From Nitratireductor sp. B36 (GTDB lineage Bacteria; Pseudomonadota; Alphaproteobacteria; Rhizobiales; Rhizobiaceae): a stretch of DNA of 64,000 nt. Shown here in pieces: positions 4,111 through 22,388 of the stretch; the stretch's first letter is position 1, and each line of letters begins with the position of its first letter. The notes beneath the pieces are model-generated. The model did not search any database. It was not told the DNA's origin and was given only the letters and a program-made list of their open reading frames with translations. The stretch is from NCBI RefSeq assembly GCF_020833685.1, contig NZ_JACKZY010000003.1:510997-574996 (forward strand), in the 5' to 3' direction. The translations under genes were made by a program, and so were the position numbers.

Positions 4111-4839
4111 TCAAAGCTGCATGCTGCCCACGCTTGCACCACCGCAGACATAAAGCGTCTGGCCGGTGACGAAGCTGGCCTTCGGGTCGGCGAAGAACAT
4201 GAAGGCGTTGGTGACGTCTTCCACCGCACCGAGCCGGCCAACGGGAATGCGTTTGGCAAGCTCTGCTTCCCGCTCGCTGCCCTTCGGGATGATGCCCCAG
4301 AAATTGTCGGTCTGGATCGGTCCCGGCGCAACCACATTCACGGTGATACCGTGGGGCGCGAGCTCCAGCGCCCAGGTGCGCGCCATGCCCACCATGCCGG
4401 CCTTGGATGCGCCATAGGCGGTGCGGGTCTGCGCGCCGAGCGCTGCGCGCGATCCATTGAAGAGAACACGGCCGAAGCGGCGTTCCTTCATGGAGGGCAG
4501 GAAGGCTTTCAAAAGCGTGAGGGCGGAGCCCAGGTGAAGCTGGGCGAGGCCGGTAATGTCCTCGGCGCTGGCGTCTTCGATGAGGTTCGGCCAGATGAGG
4601 CCTGCATTCTGCACGAAATGGGTGACGTCGTGCCTGCCGGCGATTTCGGCTGCGGCTTCACGCACGGCTGCGTCGTCCAGCAGGTCGGCTTCGACCGAGC
4701 TCAGCCTTTCATGCGAGAACTCCGGCGCGCGGCGCGCGACCGAGATGACGCGATAGCCCGCATCCAGCATGGTCTGCGCCAGATTCGCGCCAATGCCCTT
4801 GTTGCCGCCGGTGATGACGGCTGTCAGCTCTTTGTCCAT
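4111..4839 (-). CDS. SDR-family NAD(P)-dependent oxidoreductase (catalytically complete)
   Basis: A classical short-chain dehydrogenase/reductase of 242 residues. It has the TGGNKGIG coenzyme loop, QNAG, a catalytic Ser in FNGSRA and the YGASK catalytic Tyr/Lys pair, so it should be active, unlike the SDR domain encoded at 5644-6903. The ATG at 4839 was preferred over the upstream ATG at 4863 because AGGA precedes it and it avoids a 20-nt overlap. It is the last gene of the eight-gene catabolic operon, 4 nt past the stop of the cyclase gene. It probably oxidises or reduces a hydroxylated intermediate of the unknown pathway. Confidence 0.87.
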   Translation of the reverse strand: MDKELTAVITGGNKGIGANLAQTMLDAGYRVISVARRAPEFSHERLSSVEADLLDDAAVREAAAEIAGRHDVTHFVQNAGLIWPNLIEDASAEDITGLAQLHLGSALTLLKAFLPSMKERRFGRVLFNGSRAALGAQTRTAYGASKAGMVGMARTWALELAPHGITVNVVAPGPIQTDNFWGIIPKGSEREAELAKRIPVGRLGAVEDVTNAFMFFADPKASFVTGQTLYVCGGASVGSMQL

Positions 4840-4843
4840 CGTG

Positions 4844-5647
4844 TCATGTCCTGCCGGGCACAAGCGCCACCACGCGCAGCGGGCTGCCGGTGCCGTTCTT
4901 GATCTTGAGCGGGGTTGCGATCAGCATCGCGCCGGTGGGCGGAAGCCGGTCGAGATTGTTGAGGCATTGCAGGCCGTAGCGCCCTGCGCCGTGAAGATAG
5001 AAATGGGCCGGGTAGGGCGGCGTGTAGTGCGATCCCTGACCGGCGTCGGTGCCGACGGTCTCGGTGCCGAAACCGCGAATCCCGCGTTCGTCCACGAGAA
5101 GCCGGATCGCCGCCGGCGTGGGGCCGGGCGAATGTGCGCCATCCTCGCGCATGTTGAGATAGGCCGCGCCGCGGCGCTTCGACCAGTCGGTGCGCATCAG
5201 AACCCAGCTTTCGGCGGGAATGCGGCCATGCTCGGCCTCCCACGCCTCGATGACCTCCGGCGTCAGCTCGAAATCCTCGTCTGCGGCAGCGCCTTCGGAG
5301 CAGTCGATCACGCAGACCGGGCCGATAAAGCGCTCGGCGGGAATCTCGTCGACGCTGCCATTGGGCACGTCGCGGCCGGAGATCCAGTGCGAGGGCGCAT
5401 CGAAATGGGTGCCGGTGTGCTCGCTGCAGGTGAAGTTGTGCCATTTCCACGCCGGGCCGCGATGGTCATAGGCGGACACTTCTTCCATGCGGAAGCGGGC
5501 GCACTGGCCGAATTCCGGTGGCAGCACGATGACCGGAAAATCCTGATCGAGCGTGTGAGTGAGGTCCACCACCTCGATTGCGCCGGTGGCGAGTGCCTCC
5601 GCCAGATTGCCCAGAAGGGCGGATGGGTCGGTTGCGTGGACGTTCAT
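4844..5647 (-). CDS. Cyclase-family (kynurenine-formamidase-like) metal hydrolase
   Basis: A 267-residue member of the cyclase/formamidase family, whose members hydrolyse amides, lactones or cyclic ketones with a bound divalent metal. The defining HTGTHFDAPSHW motif is present. Known relatives include kynurenine formamidase (KynB), isatin hydrolase and alicyclic ring-opening hydrolases. The start codon overlaps the stop of the OB-fold/SDR gene (ATGA at 5647-5644), which implies translational coupling. It is longer than KynB (about 210 residues) and there is no tryptophan gene nearby, so a ring- or lactone-opening step in the catabolic pathway is more likely than kynurenine formation. The substrate is unknown. 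Confidence 0.85.
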   Translation of the reverse strand: MNVHATDPSALLGNLAEALATGAIEVVDLTHTLDQDFPVIVLPPEFGQCARFRMEEVSAYDHRGPAWKWHNFTCSEHTGTHFDAPSHWISGRDVPNGSVDEIPAERFIGPVCVIDCSEGAAADEDFELTPEVIEAWEAEHGRIPAESWVLMRTDWSKRRGAAYLNMREDGAHSPGPTPAAIRLLVDERGIRGFGTETVGTDAGQGSHYTPPYPAHFYLHGAGRYGLQCLNNLDRLPPTGAMLIATPLKIKNGTGSPLRVVALVPGRT

Positions 5648-6903
5648 GCGCCGCCTCCGTCGGTTTCGCTCATCTCGCGTTCCAGCACTTTTGCGCCGGC
5701 GCGCCAGCGCTCGATCAGGTCCTTCGCCACATCGCCGACGAACACGTCTTCCAGCCCGTCCTTGAGGCCGGAGACGATGGCGCGGGCAAGGGCTGCGGGC
5801 GCGACCTTGGGCGGCGGCAGGGGCTGGTGCCATGCGTCGTCCGTCGGGCCGGTATAGACATTCATCACGCGCACGCCGCCGGGGCGCATCTCTGCGCGCA
5901 GGCACTGCGACAGCGAGTAGGCCGCGGCATTGGAGGCCGAGAAAGCGCCGAAGGCAGGCATGTTGGAATAAGCGTAGACCGACAGGATGTTGACCCAGGC
6001 GGCGGCGCTGTTGTCGCCATCTGCGCCGCGCCCGCGCATGGCCGGGCCGAAGGACTGGGCAAGCCGCATCAGGCCGAGATAGTTCACCTCCATCTCGTCG
6101 CGGGCGAACACGGTGTCTCCACGGTCCATGATGCCGCCGGGGCGCACGAATCGGGCATTGTTGACGAGAATGTCCGTCTTGCCGCCGATCTCGCCGGCAA
6201 GCTCGGTGACCGACGCGGTGTCGGTGACGTCGAGCGGCACGATCTGGACATTGGGGATCGCCTCGAGTGCCGCGCGGTGCGGATAGGGCCGCCAGCCCTC
6301 GGGCTCGCCGATGAAGATGATCGACGCGCCGGCCTTGGCGAAGGCTTCCGCCAGCGCCACGGCGTTTTCGCTCCTCGCATCGGTGATGAGCACACGGCGG
6401 AATTTCGGATCGGCGGTGATTTCGCGCAGTTGCGGATCGTCTTCCATGTGGGGCGTCCCTTCGGGAGGCAGGGCGTAGAGAACGCCCTGGCCCGACTTGT
6501 CGAGCCGGTTGATGATGCGCACCCTGCCGCCGCGCGGCGCGTCGCCATGGACATGGCACATGACGGAGGGGCCGGCGTCGAGCCGGACCGTGCCGACACG
6601 CCATGGGGTGCGTTCGCGGAAATAGGTGTTGGTGCTGGTGCGCACCGTGGTTTCGGCGATGAGCTCGCCCGCCGGGTCGATGTCGCGCCAAGGGAGGTCG
6701 GTCGACAGGCAGGTGGAGCAGGCGTCGCGCGGCGGATATTGCAGCGCGCCGCATTCGCCGCAGACCTGCAGCATGAAGCGCCCCTCGGCGGCAGCCGCCG
6801 TGAGCCCCAGCGCCGCGCGGCTTCTGAGGCCCGAGGGCAGTGTCTGTGTGCGGGTGCGCTTTTGCGGGTCTTTCTTCGGCGGCGGCAGGATGGCGTCGGT
6901 CAT
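5644..6903 (-). CDS. Zn-ribbon/OB-fold (DUF35) protein fused to a degenerate SDR domain
   Basis: A 419-residue two-domain protein. Residues about 44-150 form a rubredoxin-like zinc ribbon (Cys48, Cys51, Cys62, Cys65) followed by an OB fold, the DUF35 type that partners thiolase-like enzymes. Residues about 168-405 follow the SDR fold but have lost the key residues. The TGxxxGIG loop reads TDARSEN (174-180), NNAG is NNAR, and the YxxxK pair is Phe321/Asn325, although Ser308 remains. The domain is therefore unlikely to be a working dehydrogenase and may be a scaffold or binding module. The gene overlaps both neighbours by ATGA, with the thiolase-like gene upstream and the cyclase downstream. 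The ATG at 6903 was chosen because of that coupling. The first domain is certain; the loss of SDR function is inferred from motifs. Confidence 0.85.
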   Translation of the reverse strand: MTDAILPPPKKDPQKRTRTQTLPSGLRSRAALGLTAAAAEGRFMLQVCGECGALQYPPRDACSTCLSTDLPWRDIDPAGELIAETTVRTSTNTYFRERTPWRVGTVRLDAGPSVMCHVHGDAPRGGRVRIINRLDKSGQGVLYALPPEGTPHMEDDPQLREITADPKFRRVLITDARSENAVALAEAFAKAGASIIFIGEPEGWRPYPHRAALEAIPNVQIVPLDVTDTASVTELAGEIGGKTDILVNNARFVRPGGIMDRGDTVFARDEMEVNYLGLMRLAQSFGPAMRGRGADGDNSAAAWVNILSVYAYSNMPAFGAFSASNAAAYSLSQCLRAEMRPGGVRVMNVYTGPTDDAWHQPLPPPKVAPAALARAIVSGLKDGLEDVFVGDVAKDLIERWRAGAKVLEREMSETDGGGA

Positions 6904-8084
6904 GTGCCCGCTCCCGAAATGATGGCGGCGCTGGAACAAACGCCACGGTCGTAATTGATCATGCCGAAGCCGGAGACCATGGCGGTCGTCGCCCCTTCCA
7001 CCTGAGTGGGACCGGCTGTGCCGGTGATCTGGCGGATGGCCTCGACCAGCCCGATAAAGCCGCCGGCGGCTCCCGCCTGCCCGGCTGAAAGCTGACCGCC
7101 CGACGTGTTGTGCGGAAAATCGCCGGCAATGGTGAGATCGCGCTCGCGCACGAAGGCCGGACCGTCACCTTTCCCGCAGAACCCCAGATCCTCGAACTGC
7201 ATCATGGAGATGACCGGGTAGTCGTCATAGGTCTGCAACAGGTCCATGTCGTCGGGCCTGGCGTCGGCCATGGCGTAAAGCTCGTCGATATCCATGGCCC
7301 AGCCGCCGCGCATCTGGATCGGGTCTTCGGGGAAGGCGTTGTGACGTTCGATGCTGCCGCGAATATGCGCGTGAGGAAGGCCGGCGGCGCGGGCGTCCTC
7401 CTCACGCATCACGAGAAACGCTTCTGCGCCGCTGACGGGCATGACGCAATCGAACAGCGCGATGGGATCGGAGATCATGCGCGCGGAAAGATACTGATCC
7501 ATGGTGAGCGGCTTTTTCATCACCGCATGCGGGTTCTTCAGCGCATTGTCGCGCTGGGCGACGCAGATGCGGCCGAAATCCTCGCGGGTCGCGCCATAGG
7601 CGCTCATATAATGGTCGGTCAGGAGCGCGAAACAGGCATTCGGTCCCCCTGCTCCATAAGGGTATGAGGCATCTTGCGCGAAGCGGCTGAAGCTTGAGAG
7701 CATGCGCCGGAAACTGTCGACATGGTTGGTATCGCCGGCGACACAGGCGACGATGTCGGCGTCGCCCGCCTGCACCGCGCGGGCTGCGCGCCTGAGCGCC
7801 ACGACGCCGCTCGCCCCGCCCATGGGGATGTGATCGAGCCAGCGCGGGGTGAGACCGAGATGCTGGGTTAGCCCCACTGCCGTGTCGGGAAAGAGTGTGA
7901 AGCTTGAAACCGAGAAGCCGTCGACATCGCGGGGGCTGAGGCCGGCGCTTTGAAGCGACTGGCGCAGCGCGCGGGCGATCCACCAATGCGCCGTTTCCTT
8001 CGAAAAGCGCTGATAAGGCGTGGTGGCGGGCGCGGCGAGCACCACGCCCTCATAGCCCATCCGTTTTGAGGTGCGACCCGCCAT
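6900..8084 (-). CDS. Thiolase-like protein lacking catalytic Cys and His (Ltp2/SCPx-type, probable aldolase)
   Basis: A 394-residue thiolase-fold protein of the lipid-transfer/SCP-x branch. The nucleophilic Cys of the CxSG element is Gly90 (GASG, 90-93). The His of the GHPxGATG loop is Gln336 (GQAGAAGG). NTSGG and a late Cys383 remain. Thiolase-fold proteins that lack the nucleophile and pair with DUF35 proteins, such as Ltp2 with its ChsH2 partner, are retro-aldolases acting on acyl-CoA side chains. The next gene here encodes exactly such a DUF35 domain and overlaps by ATGA. The start ATG overlaps the stop of the acyl-CoA synthetase gene (TGATG at 8086-8082). The aldolase role is by analogy; a purely structural role is possible. 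Confidence 0.85.
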   Translation of the reverse strand: MAGRTSKRMGYEGVVLAAPATTPYQRFSKETAHWWIARALRQSLQSAGLSPRDVDGFSVSSFTLFPDTAVGLTQHLGLTPRWLDHIPMGGASGVVALRRAARAVQAGDADIVACVAGDTNHVDSFRRMLSSFSRFAQDASYPYGAGGPNACFALLTDHYMSAYGATREDFGRICVAQRDNALKNPHAVMKKPLTMDQYLSARMISDPIALFDCVMPVSGAEAFLVMREEDARAAGLPHAHIRGSIERHNAFPEDPIQMRGGWAMDIDELYAMADARPDDMDLLQTYDDYPVISMMQFEDLGFCGKGDGPAFVRERDLTIAGDFPHNTSGGQLSAGQAGAAGGFIGLVEAIRQITGTAGPTQVEGATTAMVSGFGMINYDRGVCSSAAIISGAGT

Positions 8085-9724
8085 CAGGCCGCGCGCCTTT
8101 TCTTCATGGAGCGTGTGTCGACCGTTCCCGGATCGGTGAGGAGCCGGGCGACCAGTGTTTTCAGTTCGCCGCGCTGGATCTTTTGCGTGGAGGTCAGGGG
8201 CAGGGCGTCGACAAAGGCGATGTAGCCCGGAACCTTGTAATAGGCGACGCGGTCCAGACACCATTCGGCGATCTCGCGGGCGCGCGCCTCATCGCGTTCG
8301 CCGCTCTCGACCACGAGACAGGCGAAGACCTCGTCGCCGCGCAGCTCGTCGGGTGCTGCTGCGACCGCTGCGGCCTTGATGTCGGGATGCTGCATCAAGA
8401 AGGATTCCACCTCCACGGCGGCGATGTTCTCGCCGGAACGGCGGATCACGTTCTTCTTGCGGTCGACGAAGAAGAAGTCGCCATCGGCGTCGCGCATGAC
8501 GATGTCGCCGGTGTGGAACCAGCCGCCTTCCCACGCTTCGGCGGTGGCCTCGGGGTTGGCGTAGTATTCGGAGAAGAAGCCGAAACGCGGATCTTCGCCC
8601 GCATGGCGCACCAGAAGTTCGCCGGGTTGCCCGGGGGCTGCCTCGCTGCCATCGTCTGCGACCACGCGGGCCTCGATGTCCGGGCCGGGCTGGCCAAGGC
8701 AGTTCGTGCCGCGCTTGCGGGGCTCGTGATTGGCAACGATGACCGCGCCGGCCCCCGTCTCCGTCATCGCCCAGCCCTCGATCAGCGGTATGCCGAAGCG
8801 CTCCTCGAACGGGCCGTGCAGCTTGGGGTCGATGCCCGCGCCGAAACCGAAGCGCACATTGTGCGCCCTGTCCTGTTCCGTGGGTTCGGCCTTCATGAGA
8901 ATGGACGGCATGACGCCCAGATAATGCAGGCAGGTGGCCCGGCTGTCACGCACGCTCCGCCACCAGCTGCGCGGGTGGAAACGGTCGAGCGCGATGAGGC
9001 AGCCGCCGACCGTGATCATCGCCATCAGCGAATAGGCCATGGCGTTCATGTGGAAGATGGGCAGCGGCGTGATCATGCGCTCGCCGTCTTCGTTCATGGC
9101 GCATAGGCCGCCCGCCTTCGCGTACCACCGGCCCGAATGCAGGAAATAGAGGTTGGAGAGGACGCAGCCCTTGGGCTTGCCCGTGGTGCCGGAGGTGTAG
9201 AGCATGGCCGCTTCGCGGTTGAGCGGCGCGCCCTGCGGCGTCTCCATGCCGGCAAAGCGTGGATCGAGCGGCGGGGTGTCGGCCTCTGGCGTGACGACCG
9301 GAAAGCCGACGCCGGAGACGGCGGCCGCCTGTTCGAGATCTGTCACACGGTTCGCGATGGCCACGGCCAGAACCGGGCGCGCGTGCCCGGCCATGTATTC
9401 CAGTTCAGCCGATTGCAGGTCGGGATTGACCGGCACGACCGAGAGCCCCAGCGCATTGAGGGCGAACCAGTGCAGGAAGAAGCCCGGCCGGTTTTCCATC
9501 AGGAGCATGACGCGCATGCCGGCGCGATAGCCCCCGTCGGCATAGGCGTCCCTCAAGCGCTCGATCCCGGCGAGAGCCGCGCCATAGGAGAGTTCGCCGG
9601 CGGGGATGTCGTAGACCGAGGCCGTCTCCTCCAGCACGTGCAGGAAGGGGCGCTCGGGCCAGCGCCCGGCGGTGTCGGCAAAGGCCGCGAACACGGTGTC
9701 GAACGGCGGGATCTGCGATTTCAT
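8084..9724 (-). CDS. AMP-forming acyl-CoA synthetase (acid:CoA ligase)
   Basis: A 546-residue ANL-superfamily enzyme that activates a carboxylic acid to its CoA thioester through an acyl-adenylate. The phosphate-binding loop YTSGTTGKPKG is at 176-186. The TGD and RSGENIA hinge-region motifs are present, as is a C-terminal Lys in STQKIQRGELK that should catalyse adenylation. The ATG at 9724 was chosen over an upstream in-frame codon because it lies just after the oxygenase small-subunit stop and gives a normal N terminus. In this operon it probably makes the CoA ester consumed by the thiolase-like protein. Substrate specificity cannot be inferred. Confidence 0.92.
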   Translation of the reverse strand: MKSQIPPFDTVFAAFADTAGRWPERPFLHVLEETASVYDIPAGELSYGAALAGIERLRDAYADGGYRAGMRVMLLMENRPGFFLHWFALNALGLSVVPVNPDLQSAELEYMAGHARPVLAVAIANRVTDLEQAAAVSGVGFPVVTPEADTPPLDPRFAGMETPQGAPLNREAAMLYTSGTTGKPKGCVLSNLYFLHSGRWYAKAGGLCAMNEDGERMITPLPIFHMNAMAYSLMAMITVGGCLIALDRFHPRSWWRSVRDSRATCLHYLGVMPSILMKAEPTEQDRAHNVRFGFGAGIDPKLHGPFEERFGIPLIEGWAMTETGAGAVIVANHEPRKRGTNCLGQPGPDIEARVVADDGSEAAPGQPGELLVRHAGEDPRFGFFSEYYANPEATAEAWEGGWFHTGDIVMRDADGDFFFVDRKKNVIRRSGENIAAVEVESFLMQHPDIKAAAVAAAPDELRGDEVFACLVVESGERDEARAREIAEWCLDRVAYYKVPGYIAFVDALPLTSTQKIQRGELKTLVARLLTDPGTVDTRSMKKRRAA

Positions 9725-9737
9725 CTGCTGCGCGCTT

Positions 9738-10220
9738 TCAAAGGAACATCTGGATATTGCCGAAGGCGGCATCGGAATTGAGCAGATCGACACGCTTGTG
9801 GGTGATCTTCAGCTTTCCGTCGATGAGTTTCAGCTCGTGGCGTGCCGTGGCGGCGAGCAGGATCTGGTCGTCGAGCCGCGTCTCCACATAGTGAAACGCC
9901 GTGTGGGTGACATACTCACCCTTCTCCTCGTCCATATGGTCGATGAAGGGGCGGTTCAGAACGTGGTGGCAGCGGGTTTTTGGCTTCTGGGAGAAGGTGC
10001 GCTCGCCCTTGAAGCGCTCGACGCGCAATTTGCGCATGAAGGCATCTTCATGCAGCAGCGAGGTGACGTGCTTGGCGTCTTCCTGATTGTAGTCGAGCGG
10101 CATCCAGTAATAGCTGTCGTGAGTCCACAGATCGAGCCATTCGTCAAAGCGCCCATCGTCCAGCATGCGGGCTTCTTCATAGACGAAGTCGATCAGGTCG
10201 TCGCGGGTGGGAGCCTTCAT
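9738..10220 (-). CDS. Ring-hydroxylating oxygenase beta (small) subunit
   Basis: A 160-residue protein of the ring-hydroxylating-oxygenase beta family (NTF2-like fold), the structural subunit of alpha3beta3 dioxygenases. Family features include the DEWLDLWTHDSYYWMP segment and the conserved C-terminal NIQMFL. Its ATG overlaps the stop of the alpha-subunit gene (TAATG, 10222-10218), as expected for stoichiometric subunits. It has no catalytic residues of its own. Confidence 0.92.
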   Translation of the reverse strand: MKAPTRDDLIDFVYEEARMLDDGRFDEWLDLWTHDSYYWMPLDYNQEDAKHVTSLLHEDAFMRKLRVERFKGERTFSQKPKTRCHHVLNRPFIDHMDEEKGEYVTHTAFHYVETRLDDQILLAATARHELKLIDGKLKITHKRVDLLNSDAAFGNIQMFL

Positions 10221-11551
10221 TACGCGTCTCCTTCCATCGTCATCGTCATGTATTTTTCCCACGCGTGGAACTGGTTGCGCATCTGGCGCTCGGTGGTGCC
10301 GTTTTCGACGGCGATCTCGTCGAAATTCTCGCCTTCCTGGTAAAGGCGCTGGACATTGACCCATTCCAGCCCGTCGGAATGCAGGCCCTCCTGCGCGCGC
10401 TCATACATTTCCAGATCGTCATGGCCGACCATGGAGGTGGGCGCGTTGATCATGCGGTTGTACATGGCGGTGCGCTCCAGAAGCATGTCGGGCGCGCCCA
10501 CCAGCCGGTAGATATAGCTTTCGACAAGCGTCTTGTCGGCGGCGATGGGGGTGAACAGCCGCAATTGCTGGATCGGCCCTTTGATCATGATGTTGGGGAA
10601 ATAGACCGTGTTGTGCCGGTTTTCGCCGAGGATCGCCTTTGCGCGCTCCTCGCCATAGGCCTCGACCATCTGCTCGTAATAGCCGGGAATCGCTGAATAG
10701 TCGGAGTGGATCGAGTGATGCACGCCGGTGTGGCCGTGGCCGTTCGGCCAGGTGCGGATGCCCATGTTCTCGAAGAACTCATAGGGGCTCATGAAGGGGG
10801 CGATCACCTCCATGGCCATGGGCTTTTTCGTGCCTTCGGGCTTGTCCATCTTCTCCCACAGGTCGATGGCCGTGCCGGCGGAGCTTTCATGCGCGACCAT
10901 GGGATGGCAGGTGTCGGTCTGGTTCTCGACCAGCATCTTCCAGTTGCAGCGATGCATGTAGCGCAGCGGCGGGCCGGCCACTTCCAGACGGCCCTCGGGC
11001 GAGCGGTCGACCATATTGTCGAAGGAGCTCAGCGATTCTCCGAAGAAGCTTTCGAAGTCCGGGCCTTCCTTGTTGAGGCGGGCGAAGATGAAGCCGCGAT
11101 AGTTTTTTACCGCACCGACCGGGGCCATGCCATGAACGGATTCGCTTTCTTCGAGGCCGGTGTCCTTGTAGCCCTTGCGCAACGGGATCGCCAGCAGGCA
11201 GCCATTCGTCTTGAACGACCATGCATGGTAGGGGCAGCGAAAGAACTTGCCCGTGTTGCCCGTCCGGTCGATGGCGATCTTCGTGCCCTTGTGCGGGCAG
11301 CGATTGTGCAGGACATAGATCTCGTTGTCGGAGTGGCGCACCATGATCACCGGCTGCGTGCCGATCTCGGTGGTGAAATAATCGCCCTTGTTGGGCGTCT
11401 GGCTCTCATGGCCGACAAAGACCCAGGTGTTGGCGAAGAGATGTTTCATCTCCAGCTCGAACACTTCCTGATCGATATAGACGTCGCGGTGGACTTCCGT
11501 GGGCCGGATCAGATTTCTGATCGCCTGGGGGTTGTTCGCGTAACGGCTCAT
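10220..11551 (-). CDS. Rieske ring-hydroxylating oxygenase alpha (large) subunit
   Basis: A 443-residue catalytic subunit. The Rieske [2Fe-2S] ligands are Cys85, His87, Cys106 and His109. The mononuclear iron site is visible as NQTDTCHPMVAH, where Asp213 is the electron-transfer bridge and His216 and His221 are metal ligands. With the beta subunit and reductase it forms a three-component-type dioxygenase in which the reductase carries the ferredoxin domain, as in benzoate or anthranilate dioxygenases. It hydroxylates an aromatic or related ring in the first committed step. Upstream in-frame codons exist, but the ATG at 11551, preceded by GGGAG and placed after the reductase gene, gives the normal start. 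The substrate is not recognisable. Confidence 0.94.
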   Translation of the reverse strand: MSRYANNPQAIRNLIRPTEVHRDVYIDQEVFELEMKHLFANTWVFVGHESQTPNKGDYFTTEIGTQPVIMVRHSDNEIYVLHNRCPHKGTKIAIDRTGNTGKFFRCPYHAWSFKTNGCLLAIPLRKGYKDTGLEESESVHGMAPVGAVKNYRGFIFARLNKEGPDFESFFGESLSSFDNMVDRSPEGRLEVAGPPLRYMHRCNWKMLVENQTDTCHPMVAHESSAGTAIDLWEKMDKPEGTKKPMAMEVIAPFMSPYEFFENMGIRTWPNGHGHTGVHHSIHSDYSAIPGYYEQMVEAYGEERAKAILGENRHNTVYFPNIMIKGPIQQLRLFTPIAADKTLVESYIYRLVGAPDMLLERTAMYNRMINAPTSMVGHDDLEMYERAQEGLHSDGLEWVNVQRLYQEGENFDEIAVENGTTERQMRNQFHAWEKYMTMTMEGDA

Positions 11552-11591: not shown

Positions 11592-12557
11592 CTAGAGGTC
11601 GAGGACGAGCCGGTCGGATTTTGCGCGTGACACGCAGATCTGCATGACGTCATTTGCCGCGCGTTCATCGTCGGTGAGGATGACATCGCGGTGGTCGGGA
11701 ATGCCGGACAGGACCGTTGTCTGGCAGATGCCGCAATCGCCGCGCTGGCAATCATAGATCAGGTCGACGCCTTCCTCCTCGAGCACTTCGATGATGGACT
11801 TGCCCGGCGGGATGGTGAAGACCTGACCCGTGGAGCTGATCTCGACCTCGAAGGGCTTGTCGCCCGCTTCGGCTTCATGCGCCTCGAACAGCTCGAAATG
11901 CACGTGATCCTTGGCGATGCCACGGGCATGGGCGATTTCGCGCACCGCCTCGATCATGCCGCGCGGGCCGCACACATAAATGTGGCCTTCGGCAGGCGCC
12001 TTGCCGATCAGCGCCTTGAGGTCAATGCAGGTCTCGGGCTCGTCGTCGCAATGGATGGTGAGGGCATTGGTTTCGATGGCTTCCAGCACATCGACAAAGG
12101 CCAGCAGAGTGCGCGAACGGCCCGCATAGTGAAACGAGAAAGGGCGGTCCTTCGCCTTGAGTTCGGCAGCCATGGAGATGAGCGGCGTGACGCCGATGCC
12201 GCCGGCGATGAGAAGGACAGGCGCTTGTGCATCGACCAGTGCAAAGTCGTTGCGCGGGGCGGAGGTTTCGATGATGTCGCCCTCCTTCAGCCCATGCATG
12301 AAACGCGAGCCGCCCTTGCTGTCCTCTTCGAGGCGCACGCCGAGGCGATAGGTGGAGGGCGTGTCGGTGGCACCTGCTTCGGTACTGGCATTGACGAGGG
12401 AATAGTGCCGGTCTGAGCCATCAGGCAGCGTGACACGGATATGTGCGCCGGCTGAAAAACCCGGCAACGGGCCGCCATCGACCGCCTCCAGTTCGAGCGC
12501 CCGGATCTGCGGTGTGAGTGCCTCGGATTTGCGTACCTTGAGCTTCAACTCGCTCAT
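11592..12557 (-). CDS. Oxygenase reductase (phthalate-dioxygenase-reductase family)
   Basis: A 321-residue electron-transfer protein. An FMN-type flavin domain (RHYSLVNA, 50-57) is followed by an NAD-binding domain (GGIGVTPLISM, 119-129, and YVCGPRGM) and a C-terminal plant-type [2Fe-2S] ferredoxin with Cys270, Cys275, Cys278 and Cys308. It passes electrons from NADH to the Rieske oxygenase encoded next. The start at 12557 has a GGAGGAGAG ribosome-binding site, so it is the first gene of the operon. The promoter lies in the divergent region at 12632-12661. Confidence 0.93.
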   Translation of the reverse strand: MSELKLKVRKSEALTPQIRALELEAVDGGPLPGFSAGAHIRVTLPDGSDRHYSLVNASTEAGATDTPSTYRLGVRLEEDSKGGSRFMHGLKEGDIIETSAPRNDFALVDAQAPVLLIAGGIGVTPLISMAAELKAKDRPFSFHYAGRSRTLLAFVDVLEAIETNALTIHCDDEPETCIDLKALIGKAPAEGHIYVCGPRGMIEAVREIAHARGIAKDHVHFELFEAHEAEAGDKPFEVEISSTGQVFTIPPGKSIIEVLEEEGVDLIYDCQRGDCGICQTTVLSGIPDHRDVILTDDERAANDVMQICVSRAKSDRLVLDL

Positions 12558-12704: not shown

Positions 12705-12764
12705 AGAGCATGAAAACTTATGGAAGCCTCATGCGCAGGAGGAGGCCGTCATGGAGAAAAGACA

Positions 12765-13790
12765 ATGACGCGCATGCTAAAAACATTTGTAACTGCATCT
12801 ATTCTGACGACTGTCATGAGCTTCGGCGCGATGGCGCAGGAGACAGTTCTGCGCATGTCGAACTGGCTGCCGCCATCTCATCCGATCGTCCGGGACATGA
12901 TGATCCCGTGGGCGGAGAAGCTGAAAGAGGCCAGCGACGGCCGCATCGAGGTGCAGATTCTCGACGCGCCGCTCGGGCCGCCGCCGGCACATTTCGATCT
13001 TGCCGCCAATGGCGCCGTGGACCTGACATTCGGCGTGCATGGCTATACGCCGGGGCGTTTCACCCTGACGGAAATCGCAGAAATGCCGTTCCTCGCCGAT
13101 ACGTCCGAGAGCCTTTCGGTGGCCTTCTGGCGTGTGTTCGAGAGCGATCTGGCGCAGGCCGAAGAGCATCGCGGCACCAAGGTGCTGGGCGTGTTCGGGC
13201 ATGGGCCGGGGCTGCTGTTCACCAAGGGAAAGCCGGTTTCGCCGCTGTCGGACCTTTCCGGTGCCAAGATCCGCGTTGCGGGCAACATCACCAACAAGCT
13301 TGCCGAAGCGATGGACATGGTGTCGATCCAGGCGCCGTCGCCGCAGTCTTATGAAATCCTGTCGGGCGGCATCGCCGACGGTATTTTCTTCCCGGTCGAA
13401 TCCGTGCCCTTCTTCAAGCTCGAAACACTGGTCGACAAGGCGCTGCGTGTGCCCGGCGGTCTCTACAATGTCTCGTTCTTCTTCGTAATGAACAAGGCGA
13501 AGTTCGACAGCCTGTCGGATGAGGACAAGGCGGCCATCGAAGAGGTTTCCGGTGAGGCGTTCTCGCGTATGGCGGGGCAGGCCTGGGATGCGGCGGATGC
13601 AGCCGGCATGGAAGTGATCGGCTCGACCGTCGACTTCCACGATGCGACCGAAGAAGAGCTTGCGACGCTGCGTGAGAAGACGCAGCCCATGTTTGACGAT
13701 CTGGCCAAGGCCTATGAGGCCAAGGGACTCGATTTCGACGTCGTGATGGGCAAGCTCAAGGACGAAATCAAAGCGGTGGCGGCTGAATAA
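12765..13790 (+). CDS. dctP: TRAP transporter substrate-binding protein (first system)
   Basis: A 341-residue DctP-type periplasmic binding protein. An N-terminal signal peptide ends near AMA-QE (residue 24). The mature part has the DctP fold with PLSDLSGAKIRVAG, where Arg normally contacts the substrate carboxylate. The ATG at 12765 is preceded by GGAG at 8 nt spacing. It heads the plus-strand operon and is divergent from the oxygenase operon. Its ligand is probably the organic acid degraded by that pathway. The permease subunits follow directly. Confidence 0.93.
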   Translation: MTRMLKTFVTASILTTVMSFGAMAQETVLRMSNWLPPSHPIVRDMMIPWAEKLKEASDGRIEVQILDAPLGPPPAHFDLAANGAVDLTFGVHGYTPGRFTLTEIAEMPFLADTSESLSVAFWRVFESDLAQAEEHRGTKVLGVFGHGPGLLFTKGKPVSPLSDLSGAKIRVAGNITNKLAEAMDMVSIQAPSPQSYEILSGGIADGIFFPVESVPFFKLETLVDKALRVPGGLYNVSFFFVMNKAKFDSLSDEDKAAIEEVSGEAFSRMAGQAWDAADAAGMEVIGSTVDFHDATEEELATLREKTQPMFDDLAKAYEAKGLDFDVVMGKLKDEIKAVAAE

Positions 13791-14299
13791 TGGCCGCCTC
13801 CTCCGAGCGGATCGCAATGCGGGCTCGGCGGTGGCTAAGACTGGCGACCGCCGTGCTTTGCGGCGCGTTTCTGGTGGCGCTGACGCTGGTGACGGTGGTC
13901 GATGTGATCGGCCGCTATCTCCTGTCGTCGCCGCTGCCGGGTGCCGCGGAATATACCGAAATCCTCCTGATGGCGATCGTGTTTGTGGGGCTGCCGGCGG
14001 TGTGCCTGGATGACGGGCATGTGAGCGTCGATCTGCTCACGGCCGGGCTCAAGGGCGTTGCTGAGAGAATTCAGCTCAATCTCGCCCGGCTTGTGGTTGC
14101 CGTGGTGCTGGGGCTCGTTTCCTGGCAGCTCTGGAACCATGGGGCCCAGCTCGACAGCTACAATGAGGTGACGGTTTATCTGCGTGCGCCGCTCGGGCCG
14201 TTCGCCAAGGCGACGGCAGTCATCACCGGTGTCTGTGCGGTGGTTACATTTGTCATGGCGGTGCTGCGCCTGCCTAAAAGCGATGGCGGGGGCGTTTGA
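13790..14299 (+). CDS. dctQ: TRAP transporter small permease (DctQ, first system)
   Basis: A 169-residue membrane protein with four hydrophobic segments, the normal DctQ topology. Its start overlaps the dctP stop (TAATG). It forms the membrane complex with the DctM protein encoded next, which uses the sodium gradient to import the ligand delivered by DctP. The conserved DVIGRYL region and E-YTEILL segment near the start of the second helix are visible. Confidence 0.9.
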   Translation: MAASSERIAMRARRWLRLATAVLCGAFLVALTLVTVVDVIGRYLLSSPLPGAAEYTEILLMAIVFVGLPAVCLDDGHVSVDLLTAGLKGVAERIQLNLARLVVAVVLGLVSWQLWNHGAQLDSYNEVTVYLRAPLGPFAKATAVITGVCAVVTFVMAVLRLPKSDGGGV

Positions 14300-15585
14300 T
14301 GGCGTGGCCAATCGGAATGGCGCTGCTTCTGGCGCTCATCTTCGCGGGCGTGCCCATCGCCTTTGCGATGACGGCGGTGGGGCTGATCGGCGTTGTCTCG
14401 ATCATAGGCTGGCACCCGGCGCTGGCCATGCTCGGGCAGGTCTTTTTCGACAGTGGCAGGAGCTATACGCTCTCCGTCGTGCCGCTGTTCCTTCTGATGG
14501 GCAATCTCGTGGTTCAGTCGGGCGTGGCGGGTGACCTCTACGCGGCGGCCAATGCCTGGCTGCGCCACCGCAAGGGCGGGCTTGCCATGGCGACCATCGT
14601 CGCCTGCGGCGGGTTCTCGTCGGTGTGCGGCTCGTCGCTCGCCACCACGGCGACCATGGCCCGCATCTCGCTGCCGGCGATGCGCAAATATGGCTATTCC
14701 GACCGGCTGGCCGCCTCTTCCATCGCTGCGGGCGGCACGCTCGGCATTCTCATCCCGCCGTCGGTGATCCTCGTTATCTACGGCATTCTCACGCAGCAGA
14801 ACATCGGCAAACTGTTTCTGGCCGGCCTGTTGCCGGGGGTGATCGGCGTAATCGGGTACATGATCGCCGTGCGTCTGTCGCTGGTGGTCTATTCAGAGCA
14901 TCTGGAAACGCAGCCCAAGCTGCCACTGATCGACCGCATTCGCGCTTTGCGCGGTGTGGTCTGGGCGCTGGCGCTTTTCGTGTTCGTTCTGGGCGGTATC
15001 TATCTCGGCGTGTTCACGGCGACGGAAGCGGCGGGCATGGGCGCGGGCGGGGCCTTTCTTCTCACCTTCATGCGCGGACGGCTGACCTTGCGCGCCACGC
15101 TTTCCACGCTGTTCGACACGGCAAAGACCACGGCGGTGATGTTCTTCATTCTGTTCGGGGCGCTGTACTTCCTGAACTATGTGAACTTCTCCGGCCTGAC
15201 GGGCGATCTGCGCAACTGGATCAACGCTTTCGGCGTCGGCCCGTATCCGGTGATCTTCATGATCGTGCTGATCTATCTGGTGCTGGGCTGCCTGCTTGAA
15301 AGCATCTCGATGATCACGCTCACCGTGCCGATCCTGTTTCCGATCGTCACCGGGCTTGGCTTCGATCCGATCTGGTTCGGCATCTTCGTGGTGATCGCCA
15401 CCGAGCTGAGCTTCATCACGCCACCCATTGGCATGAATGTCTTCGTCATGCGCACGGTGGCGCCCGACATTCCGCTGGAGCGCATTTTCGCCGGTATCCT
15501 GCCCTTTGTGGCGATGGATGTGGTGCGGCTTGCGCTTCTGATCGCGCTGCCGGCGATGGCGCTTCTGATCCCCAATTCGATGTGA
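14299..15585 (+). CDS. dctM: TRAP transporter large permease (DctM, first system)
   Basis: A 428-residue polytopic permease of the ion-transporter superfamily. DctM hallmarks include the GGFSSVCGSSLAT loop, AGGTLGILIPPS and ELSFITPPIGMNVFVM. The ATG at 14299 overlaps the dctQ stop (TGATG); an in-frame TTG lies one codon upstream. It ends 9 bp before the MarR gene, so the regulator is co-transcribed with the transporter. Confidence 0.93.
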   Translation: MAWPIGMALLLALIFAGVPIAFAMTAVGLIGVVSIIGWHPALAMLGQVFFDSGRSYTLSVVPLFLLMGNLVVQSGVAGDLYAAANAWLRHRKGGLAMATIVACGGFSSVCGSSLATTATMARISLPAMRKYGYSDRLAASSIAAGGTLGILIPPSVILVIYGILTQQNIGKLFLAGLLPGVIGVIGYMIAVRLSLVVYSEHLETQPKLPLIDRIRALRGVVWALALFVFVLGGIYLGVFTATEAAGMGAGGAFLLTFMRGRLTLRATLSTLFDTAKTTAVMFFILFGALYFLNYVNFSGLTGDLRNWINAFGVGPYPVIFMIVLIYLVLGCLLESISMITLTVPILFPIVTGLGFDPIWFGIFVVIATELSFITPPIGMNVFVMRTVAPDIPLERIFAGILPFVAMDVVRLALLIALPAMALLIPNSM

Positions 15586-15594
15586 CCGGACGAT

Positions 15595-16134
15595 ATGATG
15601 GCGAGTGAAGACGACAGAATAGAGATCGACATAGAGATCGACCGGGATGCGGGATTCGTGGGCGACTATCTGCTCTATCTGCTTGCCGCCGCCAGCGACG
15701 CAGCCAGTGCCGATTTTCACGCCCATGTGCGCGAGCAGGGGCTGCGTGTGCCCGAATGGCGCATCCTGGCCTGCCTCTGCGACGAGGATGGCCAGATGGT
15801 GACGCAGCTCGCTCAGCTTGCGTTGATGGAACAATCGCACCTGACCAAGATCGTCGACCAGATGGCGACGAAAGGGCTTGTCAAACGCCGCAGCGATGAG
15901 CGCGACCGGCGGCGTGTGCGCGTCTATCTGACCGCAGCCGGGCGGGTGCTCGGAACAGGCTTGGTGAAGAAGGCGAGAGAGCATGAAATGTCGATCGTTT
16001 CGCGCCTGGGCGCCACCGACGCAGCGCGCCTGAAGGCGGCGCTGAAGGACATACACGCAATTTGCCGGGGAGGGGATGACGCTGCGGGCAGGGCTTCGTC
16101 AGCGCCGGCAGAACTGGAGGCAAGCCTTTCATGA
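15595..16134 (+). CDS. MarR-family transcriptional regulator
   Basis: A 179-residue MarR-type winged-helix repressor. The core (about residues 45-125) contains VPEWRILACL, LMEQSHLTKIVDQM as the recognition helix and the RRSDERDRRRVRVYLT wing. It has an unusual acidic N-terminal extension. It overlaps the next gene by ATGA, so it is embedded in the transporter operon. It probably responds to the transported acid or its CoA ester and controls the divergent region at 12632-12704. MarR relatives often regulate aromatic-acid catabolism, but the target here is inferred. Confidence 0.88.
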   Translation: MMASEDDRIEIDIEIDRDAGFVGDYLLYLLAAASDAASADFHAHVREQGLRVPEWRILACLCDEDGQMVTQLAQLALMEQSHLTKIVDQMATKGLVKRRSDERDRRRVRVYLTAAGRVLGTGLVKKAREHEMSIVSRLGATDAARLKAALKDIHAICRGGDDAAGRASSAPAELEASLS

Positions 16135-21614: not shown

Positions 21615-22388
21615 ATGAAGATCTGGTATCAAAGCTATGTCGATTACGAGAACGGCGCGGGCTACTGGGACGAACTGAGGAAGCATCTCGATGCGATTGT
21701 CGATCCCGGTACTGAGATCGACATCAAGGGCATTACCCCGCATGACAGCTACGCCCACGCCATTGTGGAGTTTCGCTGCGCGCGCGAGGTGATCTGCAAT
21801 GCGGTGCGGGCAGAGCGCGAGGGCTATGACGCCTTCATCATTGGCCATTTTCAGGATGCCGGCCTCTATGAGGCGCGATCGGTGGTCGACATTCCTGTGC
21901 TGGGCATGGGCGAGGCGTCCATGCTGCATGCCTGCCAGCTTGGCCAGCGCTCGGGCATCGTCACCATCAACCGCCGCTACATTCCCTGGTTTCATCACCA
22001 GATCGGCAAATACGGTTTGAGAGAGCGGGTGACCGGCGTTCACGCTATGGATTTTGAGCCGGGGCAGATCCTTGCCGCCTTCGGCTCCGACGAGCGGCTT
22101 GAGACGGTGCGCGCCCTGTTCGAGGAACAGGCAAGGCCATTGGTGCGCGACGGTGTCGACGTGCTGATCCCCGGTGGCGGCATTCCCATGCTTTTATTCT
22201 CGCAATTGCAGGCGCACCGGGTGGATGGCGCGCCGGTGATCAACGGCATTCCGATCGTCGTGAAACTGGCGGAAATGGCCGTGAAGTTGCGGGCGTTGAC
22301 CGGCCTTGGCGTCAGCCGTACCTCGGATTTCGTGAAACCGCCCGAGGAAATCATCGAAGAGTTCATGACCCATCCGAAGGGACTATAA
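21615..22388 (+). CDS. Asp/Glu/hydantoin racemase-fold protein lacking both catalytic cysteines
   Basis: A 257-residue protein of the aspartate/glutamate/hydantoin racemase superfamily. The two Cys that act as acid and base in true racemases are absent. The GCFGDPGL-type site reads GHFQDAGL (His78), and the second site, normally GCAGM, is PGGGIP (Gly188). A racemase using two thiols is therefore excluded. A related decarboxylase or isomerase, or a binding protein, remains possible. As the last gene of the TRAP operon it probably acts on the imported compound. It starts 4 bp after dctM. Confidence 0.82.
   Translation: MKIWYQSYVDYENGAGYWDELRKHLDAIVDPGTEIDIKGITPHDSYAHAIVEFRCAREVICNAVRAEREGYDAFIIGHFQDAGLYEARSVVDIPVLGMGEASMLHACQLGQRSGIVTINRRYIPWFHHQIGKYGLRERVTGVHAMDFEPGQILAAFGSDERLETVRALFEEQARPLVRDGVDVLIPGGGIPMLLFSQLQAHRVDGAPVINGIPIVVKLAEMAVKLRALTGLGVSRTSDFVKPPEEIIEEFMTHPKGL

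Follow-up and report, generated by a model that had tools for sequence, protein, structure and literature searches.

The window analysed here, a stretch of 64,000 nucleotides from Nitratireductor sp. B36, carries a gene set with the order iadC-D-E-F-G-H-I-J (Table 1). Two adjacent genes within it, iadG (protein P0001) and iadH (P0002), are the subject of this study. Sequence comparison identifies the set, with very high confidence, as an indole-3-acetic acid degradation (iad) locus and P0001 and P0002 as IadG and IadH, because the matches of the oxygenase, the MarR regulator and the hydrolase all indicate indole-3-acetic acid (IAA). Steroid side-chain degradation, considered as the pathway, was rejected on the same three matches.

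Gene content and published evidence

The Rieske oxygenase genes iadDE stand together with iadF-J in the window. IadD matches the solved structure 9O71, IadDE of Variovorax paradoxus CL014 according to its record, with an E-value of 2.7e-175, and the next family follows at 1.7e-39; 7YLS/8H2T, possibly Variovorax IadD as well, gave 8.6e-176, and 9O71 serves as the anchor. Window IadD is 58% identical to IadD of a Variovorax locus (L074 in our survey). The MarR regulator has its best solved match in Ruegeria pomeroyi 3CDH (4e-47), an IAA-binding IadR from an IAA-degrading host (PMC9613470). The order iadC-D-E-F-G-H-I-J fits the Variovorax locus described in PMC12633357 and is identical on annotated plasmids of Labrenzia, Sulfitobacter and R. 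pomeroyi DSS-3. The TRAP transporter genes of the window, judged by position, are probably the uptake system of the locus; TRAP genes flank it in Labrenzia and Sulfitobacter too. No match to the MarR protein was found in the DSS-3 plasmid stretch; another R. pomeroyi strain (L045) has such a match beside its locus. Judged from one protein, 99% identical in locus L039, the host is close to Nitratireductor aquimarinus.

The original prediction had described overlaps of one to four bases between three genes, and these are correct: 1 base between the coenzyme A (CoA) ligase and P0001, 4 bases between P0001 and P0002, and 4 bases between P0002 and P0003 (4844-5647). Its further suggestion of an undescribed complex is not supported, as the genes are the published iadG and iadH of an auxin-degradation locus and have been deletion-tested as required. 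Their reaction is assigned here from active-site residues and gene neighbours, where the published labels come from annotation.

Table 1. Features of the iad locus and its flank in the window
Feature	Description	Position	Strand	Basis
iadJ	SDR; TGGNKGIG, NAG and YGASK motifs intact	4111..4839	-	sequence
iadI	isatin hydrolase; metal motif HTGTHFDAPSH, PF04199	4844..5647	-	sequence and match
iadH (P0002, 419 aa)	zinc ribbon and OB fold (DUF35) joined to a degenerate SDR domain	5644..6903	-	
DUF35 part of IadH	residues 36-130; Cys48, 51, 62, 65	6514..6798	-	PF12172, PF01796
pseudo-SDR part of IadH	about residues 166-412	5668..6408	-	
iadG (P0001, 394 aa)	thiolase fold lacking both the nucleophilic Cys and the GHP His; putative retro-aldolase	6900..8084	-	
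IadG sites	Gly90; Y286-D-D-Y289; Gln336	7815-7817; 7218-7229; 7077-7079	-	
iadF	AMP-forming acyl-CoA ligase; predicted substrate dioxindole-3-acetate	8084..9724	-	
iadE	Rieske oxygenase beta subunit	9738..10220	-	position matches annotated plasmid beta subunits
iadD	Rieske oxygenase alpha subunit	10220..11551	-	matches Variovorax IadDE 9O71
iadC	PDR/VanB-type oxygenase reductase	11592..12557	-	position matches annotated plasmid reductases
TRAP transporter genes	substrate-binding protein plus two permeases, one small and one large	12720..15585	+	by eye
MarR regulator		15595..16134	+	best solved match Ruegeria pomeroyi 3CDH

In Variovorax, a 2025 preprint reports from single deletions that iadG and iadH are each required for anthranilate formation, and that C10H9NO4, taken to be dioxindole-3-acetate, builds up when either is lost (PMC12633357). 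The same authors took the labels ketothiolase (IadG) and alcohol dehydrogenase (IadH) from annotated function alone, and provisionally assigned the pair to a reductive removal of the acetyl side chain that yields dioxindole (PMC12633357). In the texts searched, neither PMC12633357 nor PMC11630574 contains the word "aldolase", and PMC9613470 does not contain "retro-aldol". None of the literature matches listed gave an aldolase or DUF35 a role in IAA degradation, although most subscription papers lay outside that search and this is no proof.

IadG and its active site

P0001 is a thiolase-like protein by its match to PF22691 (1e-34), and its PF00108 score lies under the cut-off of that model. Alignment to thiolases places Gly90 at the nucleophilic Cys and Gln336 at the His of the GHP motif, as had been predicted. 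Its best solved sequence match is 9MYR (183 bits), the Sal-Shy(DUF35) aldolase, followed by 4U4E and Ltp2 6OK1. The predicted structure of IadG (pLDDT 87.5) gave a similar order in Foldseek, with CtSal 9MYR first (TM 0.85) and Ltp2 6OK1 second and third, ahead of every thiolase listed. The proposed likeness to Ltp2-ChsH2 is thus borne out, the closest solved folds being the Sal-DUF35 and Ltp2-DUF35 aldolases.

We compared IadG with the active site of CtSal, for which residue roles have been described (PMC12329534). In the alignment, Tyr302, Gln347, Gln352 and Gly89 of CtSal correspond to Tyr286, Gln331, Gln336 and Gly90 of IadG, and the acid Cys304 is replaced by Asp288. The place of Ltp2 Tyr344, equated with CtSal Gln352 in the Sal paper, holds Gln336, so that neither known catalytic acid is kept. 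Absence of the thiolase Cys and His is the state of the known DUF35 aldolases too; judged from the aligned residues, the difference in IadG is the Asp.

The relatives scan gave 361 confirmed matches, of which the best 80 were taken together with 11 plasmid and 6 further genome loci. IadH reaches at least 250 bits in 97 loci, spanning Alpha-, Beta- and Gammaproteobacteria, and IadG counts refer to 94 sequences; near relatives are included, one almost identical to the window. The combination of Gly90, Gln336 and YDDY occurs in 92 of the 94 IadG proteins, the exceptions being L035 (Arg90) and the gapped L094. YDDY, which contains Asp288, is present in 93 of 94, as is Tyr286, with one gap. A Cys at position 90 and a His at position 336 were each found in none (0/94), and the missing nucleophile speaks against the ketothiolase label. 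After thinning of genome loci at 85% identity, 54 of 55 IadG proteins keep Gly90-Gln336-YDDY. Because this state is kept in 92 of the 94 proteins, Gly90 and Gln336 are not due to chance or a sequencing fault. The DUF35 partner is encoded next to IadG; iadG adjoins iadH in 94 of the 97 loci, and the other three begin at a contig end just before iadH.

Thiolase-fold paralogues that are 37-39% identical to IadG were seen at L137 (7563-8825, reverse strand), L138 (7144-8835, forward) and L139 (7583-8833, reverse). They carry Gly where a thiolase has its Cys, YDDF, and Gln in place of the GHP His, and L137 and L138 each have a weak DUF35-like hit of about 20 bits next to the paralogue or overlapping it; from these residues, they may be further Tyr/Asp aldolases. 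The locus with Arg90, from an Azospirillum thermophilum plasmid (L035), has no coding sequence in its gene table at the places of IadG and IadH, and its iadG and iadH are possibly decaying genes.

IadH, a DUF35 protein with a degenerate SDR domain

P0002 carries PF12172, PF01796 and PF00106, and no other protein matching either DUF35 model was found in the genome. The predicted four-Cys zinc ribbon, OB fold and broken motifs of a short-chain dehydrogenase/reductase (SDR) domain were all recovered: window IadH reads TDARSENA, NNAR and F321-SAS-N325 at the places of TGxxxGIG, NNAG and YxxxK. The SDR fold is present, and the TGxxxGxG motif and Tyr-Lys pair are absent; Tyr, Lys and all three motif glycines are missing. 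No shifted copy of these motifs was seen in the alignments, and SDR activity through such copies was rejected; conserved Cys do occur at other columns of IadG (see below).

Across the family, the four zinc-ribbon Cys are kept in all 97 IadH proteins, and among 53 sampled for Pfam domains the SDR and OB models matched 53 and the zinc ribbon 52. The fusion thus forms a lineage, as had been suspected. The Phe-xxx-Asn change proposed as its signature was rejected, since this pair occurs in only 9 of 97; the mark of the family is the lost first glycine of the cofactor motif, which is Asp, Asn or Glu in 97/97. The second glycine is present in 2/97 and the third in 59/97, and the Gly of NNAG is kept in only 2/97. 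The catalytic Tyr remains in 23/97, the Lys in 34/97 and both in 5/97 (L008 ends before these columns), so that the loss of Tyr and Lys predicted for a dead SDR domain is true of window IadH and not of the whole family. The five proteins with both residues all come from Beta- or Gammaproteobacteria or from loci labelled only Proteobacteria. In the nearest SDRs that lack a DUF35 match (L010-L026), the first glycine and the Lys are present in 17/17 and the Tyr in 11/17. Tyr loss alone therefore says little, as 6 of these 17 lack it too. In L007, the IadH match of the genome search contains one in-frame TGA.

The SDR part is under purifying selection: the ratio of nonsynonymous to synonymous substitution rates (dN/dS) was 0.06-0.20 in six comparisons, and the DUF35 part was much alike (0-0.30). 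Since the SDR part is kept by purifying selection, it is probably a scaffold. In the IadH model (pLDDT 90.9, pTM 0.90), it resembles 5U4S, an SDR with Leu at the Tyr place that was solved with NADP, for which reason we do not call cofactor binding impossible. From its motifs, we judge with good confidence that the SDR part is non-catalytic. Its most likely role would be that of a structural or docking module, binding of the CoA substrate being another possible role raised by the original prediction, and the DUF35 part would, by analogy, be the one that binds IadG. BbsCD of benzylsuccinate degradation is a dehydrogenase with one inactive SDR subunit, a point our literature look-up did not confirm.

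These data bear on the published assignment of IadH as an alcohol dehydrogenase. The five proteins that keep Tyr and Lys, together with the SDR-fold residues Asp225 (95/97) and Asn248 (96/97), would suit it; the first cofactor glycine, lost throughout IadH and kept in 17/17 of the nearest SDRs, argues against it. They also bear on a mixed scheme in which IadG is a retro-aldolase and the SDR part of IadH has kept some function, either the reduction of isatin to dioxindole or an altered mode of NAD(P) binding. Such an activity would account for a reported C8H7NO2 product (see below), and it draws on the Lys kept in about a third of the family, including Variovorax L074, and on 5U4S, the closest solved relative, crystallised with NADP despite its Leu. 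It is hard to reconcile with the missing Tyr, Lys and glycines of window IadH and the near-absence of the NNAG-position Gly, and we regard it as improbable.

Gene modules were counted in the 65 loci with at least 19 kb of sequence. IadG was found in 65, IadI in 64, IadF in 63, IadD in 50 and IadJ (a hit of at least 120 bits) in 49, and D and J are discordant in three. Because G, I and F are present in 63-65 loci and D and J in 49-50, F-G-H-I looks like a core and C-D-E-J like a second module. Sixteen of the 65 loci have no IadJ-like hit in the available flanks and nevertheless retain the SDR part of IadH; one of them, L031, has other SDR genes. This bears on the idea that the dead SDR of IadH pairs with the active SDR IadJ and so links dehydrogenation to the aldolase, much as ChsH1 is partnered by the inert MaoC domain of ChsH2. 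ChsH2, a non-catalytic MaoC joined to DUF35, is a direct precedent (PMC11321319), and iadJ lies directly 3' of iadI in Labrenzia, Sulfitobacter and R. pomeroyi. The 16 loci weaken an obligatory pairing, and CoA activation by IadF falls between the two steps; we consider the pairing unlikely, if less so than the mixed scheme.

An alphaproteobacterial locus, L118, encodes IadF, IadG, a lone DUF35 protein (157 aa), IadJ, IadD, IadE and IadI, and the dead SDR is missing; the DUF35 gene and the intact IadJ-type SDR gene that follows it lie at 7928-9132. In the tree, L118 IadG belongs to the IadG clade (93/98), with Variovorax L074 as its partner (85/92). At the level of gene content, one case is thus known of a gene set that is otherwise similar and has no SDR part, which does not imply that L118 degrades IAA; it also counts against a dehydrogenase role of IadH. 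In Bradyrhizobium, loci L096, L100, L103-L105, L107, L111, L116 and L117 carry iadGHI, and iadC, D, E and J are under thresholds in the available flanks. Their CoA ligase lies further off, and an oxygenase, if any, must be elsewhere. A gene named in the plasmid annotation as aspartate/glutamate-racemase family occurs near iadGHI in L030 (12118-12891), L031 (12039-12857) and L037 (10046-10852); a similar open reading frame, judged by eye, lies further from the locus in the window (21615-22388).

Reaction assignment and comparison with known systems

In dioxindole-3-acetyl-CoA, a beta-hydroxyacyl-CoA, the beta carbon bears a tertiary alcohol that cannot be oxidised to give a beta-ketoacyl-CoA. 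Ordinary thiolysis is closed to this thioester, since this oxidation would need a C3 bond broken, and retro-aldol cleavage is therefore the direct route to lose the side chain; its products, isatin (C8H5NO2) and acetyl-CoA, balance with C10H9NO4. We propose that IadG-IadH is probably the C-C cleaving enzyme of the iad pathway, a DUF35-type retro-aldolase like Sal that converts dioxindole-3-acetyl-CoA to isatin and acetyl-CoA. For IadG with its DUF35 partner taken by itself, a retro-aldolase activity that makes isatin is very likely.

In the proposed sequence of steps, IadCDE and IadJ would turn IAA into dioxindole-3-acetate, as published for Variovorax, and IadF would make the dioxindole-3-acetyl-CoA thioester, which has been proposed in print too. 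Tyr286 of IadG would deprotonate the C3 hydroxyl, cleavage of the C-C bond would set isatin free, and Asp288, at the place of Sal Cys304, would protonate the acetyl-CoA enolate. By homology, the DUF35 part of IadH is expected to flank the IadG dimer as in Sal-Shy and Ltp2-ChsH2. The SDR part of window IadH would not be a working dehydrogenase, having been retained by selection as a structural or docking module, and isatin would pass to IadI and become isatinate.

Isatin as the product is consistent with the next enzyme. Over 252 aa, window IadI shares 80.6% identity with the isatin hydrolase LaIHA of Labrenzia aggregata, whose crystal structure contains isatinate (PMC6117287), and for IadI of Labrenzia L027, whose gene directly follows iadH, identity to LaIHA reaches 98.4%. 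Isatin, dioxindole and isatinic acid have all been detected in Variovorax cultures (PMC9613470).

Several observations weigh against this assignment. The main tension is that both an iadI deletion and a strain with iadCDEFGH_JK2 accumulate C8H7NO2, the formula of dioxindole, from which the authors read the step as reductive (PMC12633357). This compound, formed without IadI, has two H more than isatin, and our reading would need a side reduction of free isatin in the cell to account for it. Gln161, which belongs to the proposed oxyanion hole of CtSal, aligns with Pro148 of IadG. Replacement of CtSal Cys304 by Ala, Ser or His makes activity undetectable (PMC12329534), so that the Asp of IadG is a putative acid. 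Cys residues at IadG columns 114, 213 and 303 are conserved in more than 90%. In a tree with the solved enzymes, IadG is not firmly grouped with Sal, the branches being long and the order near the base unsure. Finally, L036 has IadG and IadH, and IadI was not found in its available stretch.

The accumulated C8H7NO2 also favours the reductive ketothiolase/dehydrogenase route. A tertiary alcohol cannot become the beta-ketone that this route calls for, and the route would deliver dioxindole to a pathway whose next enzyme is an isatin hydrolase. Going by the residues present, the provisional labels do not fit the active sites of IadG and IadH, and we regard the route as very improbable. We would go beyond the retro-aldolase assignment only tentatively, to the idea that the Tyr/Asp pair (YDDY) of IadG defines a third kind of active site among thiolase-fold aldolases, common to a wider clade, and that IadG, IadH and IadI stay together as one complex, with the dead SDR either taking up isatin or anchoring the isatin hydrolase, which would keep reactive isatin from escaping; this combination is possible and rather doubtful.

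Bacteria with iad genes protect roots from excess auxin, and their engineering as inoculants is under way (PMC12633357). Side-chain removal was assigned there by annotation only; a mechanism with named residues makes the step testable and places isatin as the product. If true, the assignment would widen the range of DUF35 aldolases beyond steroids to auxin, a plant hormone. The SDR part of IadH would be a clear case of an enzyme domain under selection after loss of its cofactor motif.

Among known systems, the iad loci of Variovorax paradoxus CL14/CL014, Bradyrhizobium japonicum and Ruegeria pomeroyi share the C-D-E-F-G-H-I-J order of the window (PMC9613470, PMC10374108, PMC12633357). IadG and IadH are 65% and 56% identical, respectively, to those of Variovorax paradoxus ISL-79 (L074), and the window locus lies beside TRAP transporter genes, in contrast to Variovorax with its ABC binding protein IadK2. 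IadI resembles isatin hydrolase A of Labrenzia aggregata (5NNA/5NNB, PMC6117287) in sequence and in the position of its gene directly 3' of iadH, with no difference seen. BbsAB benzoylsuccinyl-CoA thiolase (7PXP) and PhlABC (5M3K) likewise combine a thiolase-fold protein with a DUF35 partner; unlike IadG, BbsB retains the thiolase Cys and His in the alignment. Ltp2-ChsH2 (6OK1) shares the Cys-less thiolase fold with DUF35, an equivalent of the catalytic Tyr294 of Ltp2 is kept in IadG, and ChsH2, like IadH, carries a non-catalytic enzyme domain beside DUF35; Ltp2 differs in its acid Tyr344 and YDHF motif, and the inert domain of ChsH2 is a MaoC that binds steroid. The closest system, in sequence and fold, is Sal-Shy of Comamonas testosteroni (9MYR, PMC12329534), which has Gly at the Cys site, the Tyr302, Gln347 and Gln352 kept in IadG, and a DUF35 partner fused to another domain. 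It differs in reading YDCY where IadG has YDDY and in holding Gln161 where IadG has Pro. Its Shy partner has a Cys3His1 zinc site and a MaoC domain, compared with four Cys and an SDR relic in IadH, whose architecture is thus distinct from both MaoC partners, Shy and, as originally proposed, ChsH2. Sal-Shy acts on steroids, and the predicted substrate of IadG is an indole derivative.

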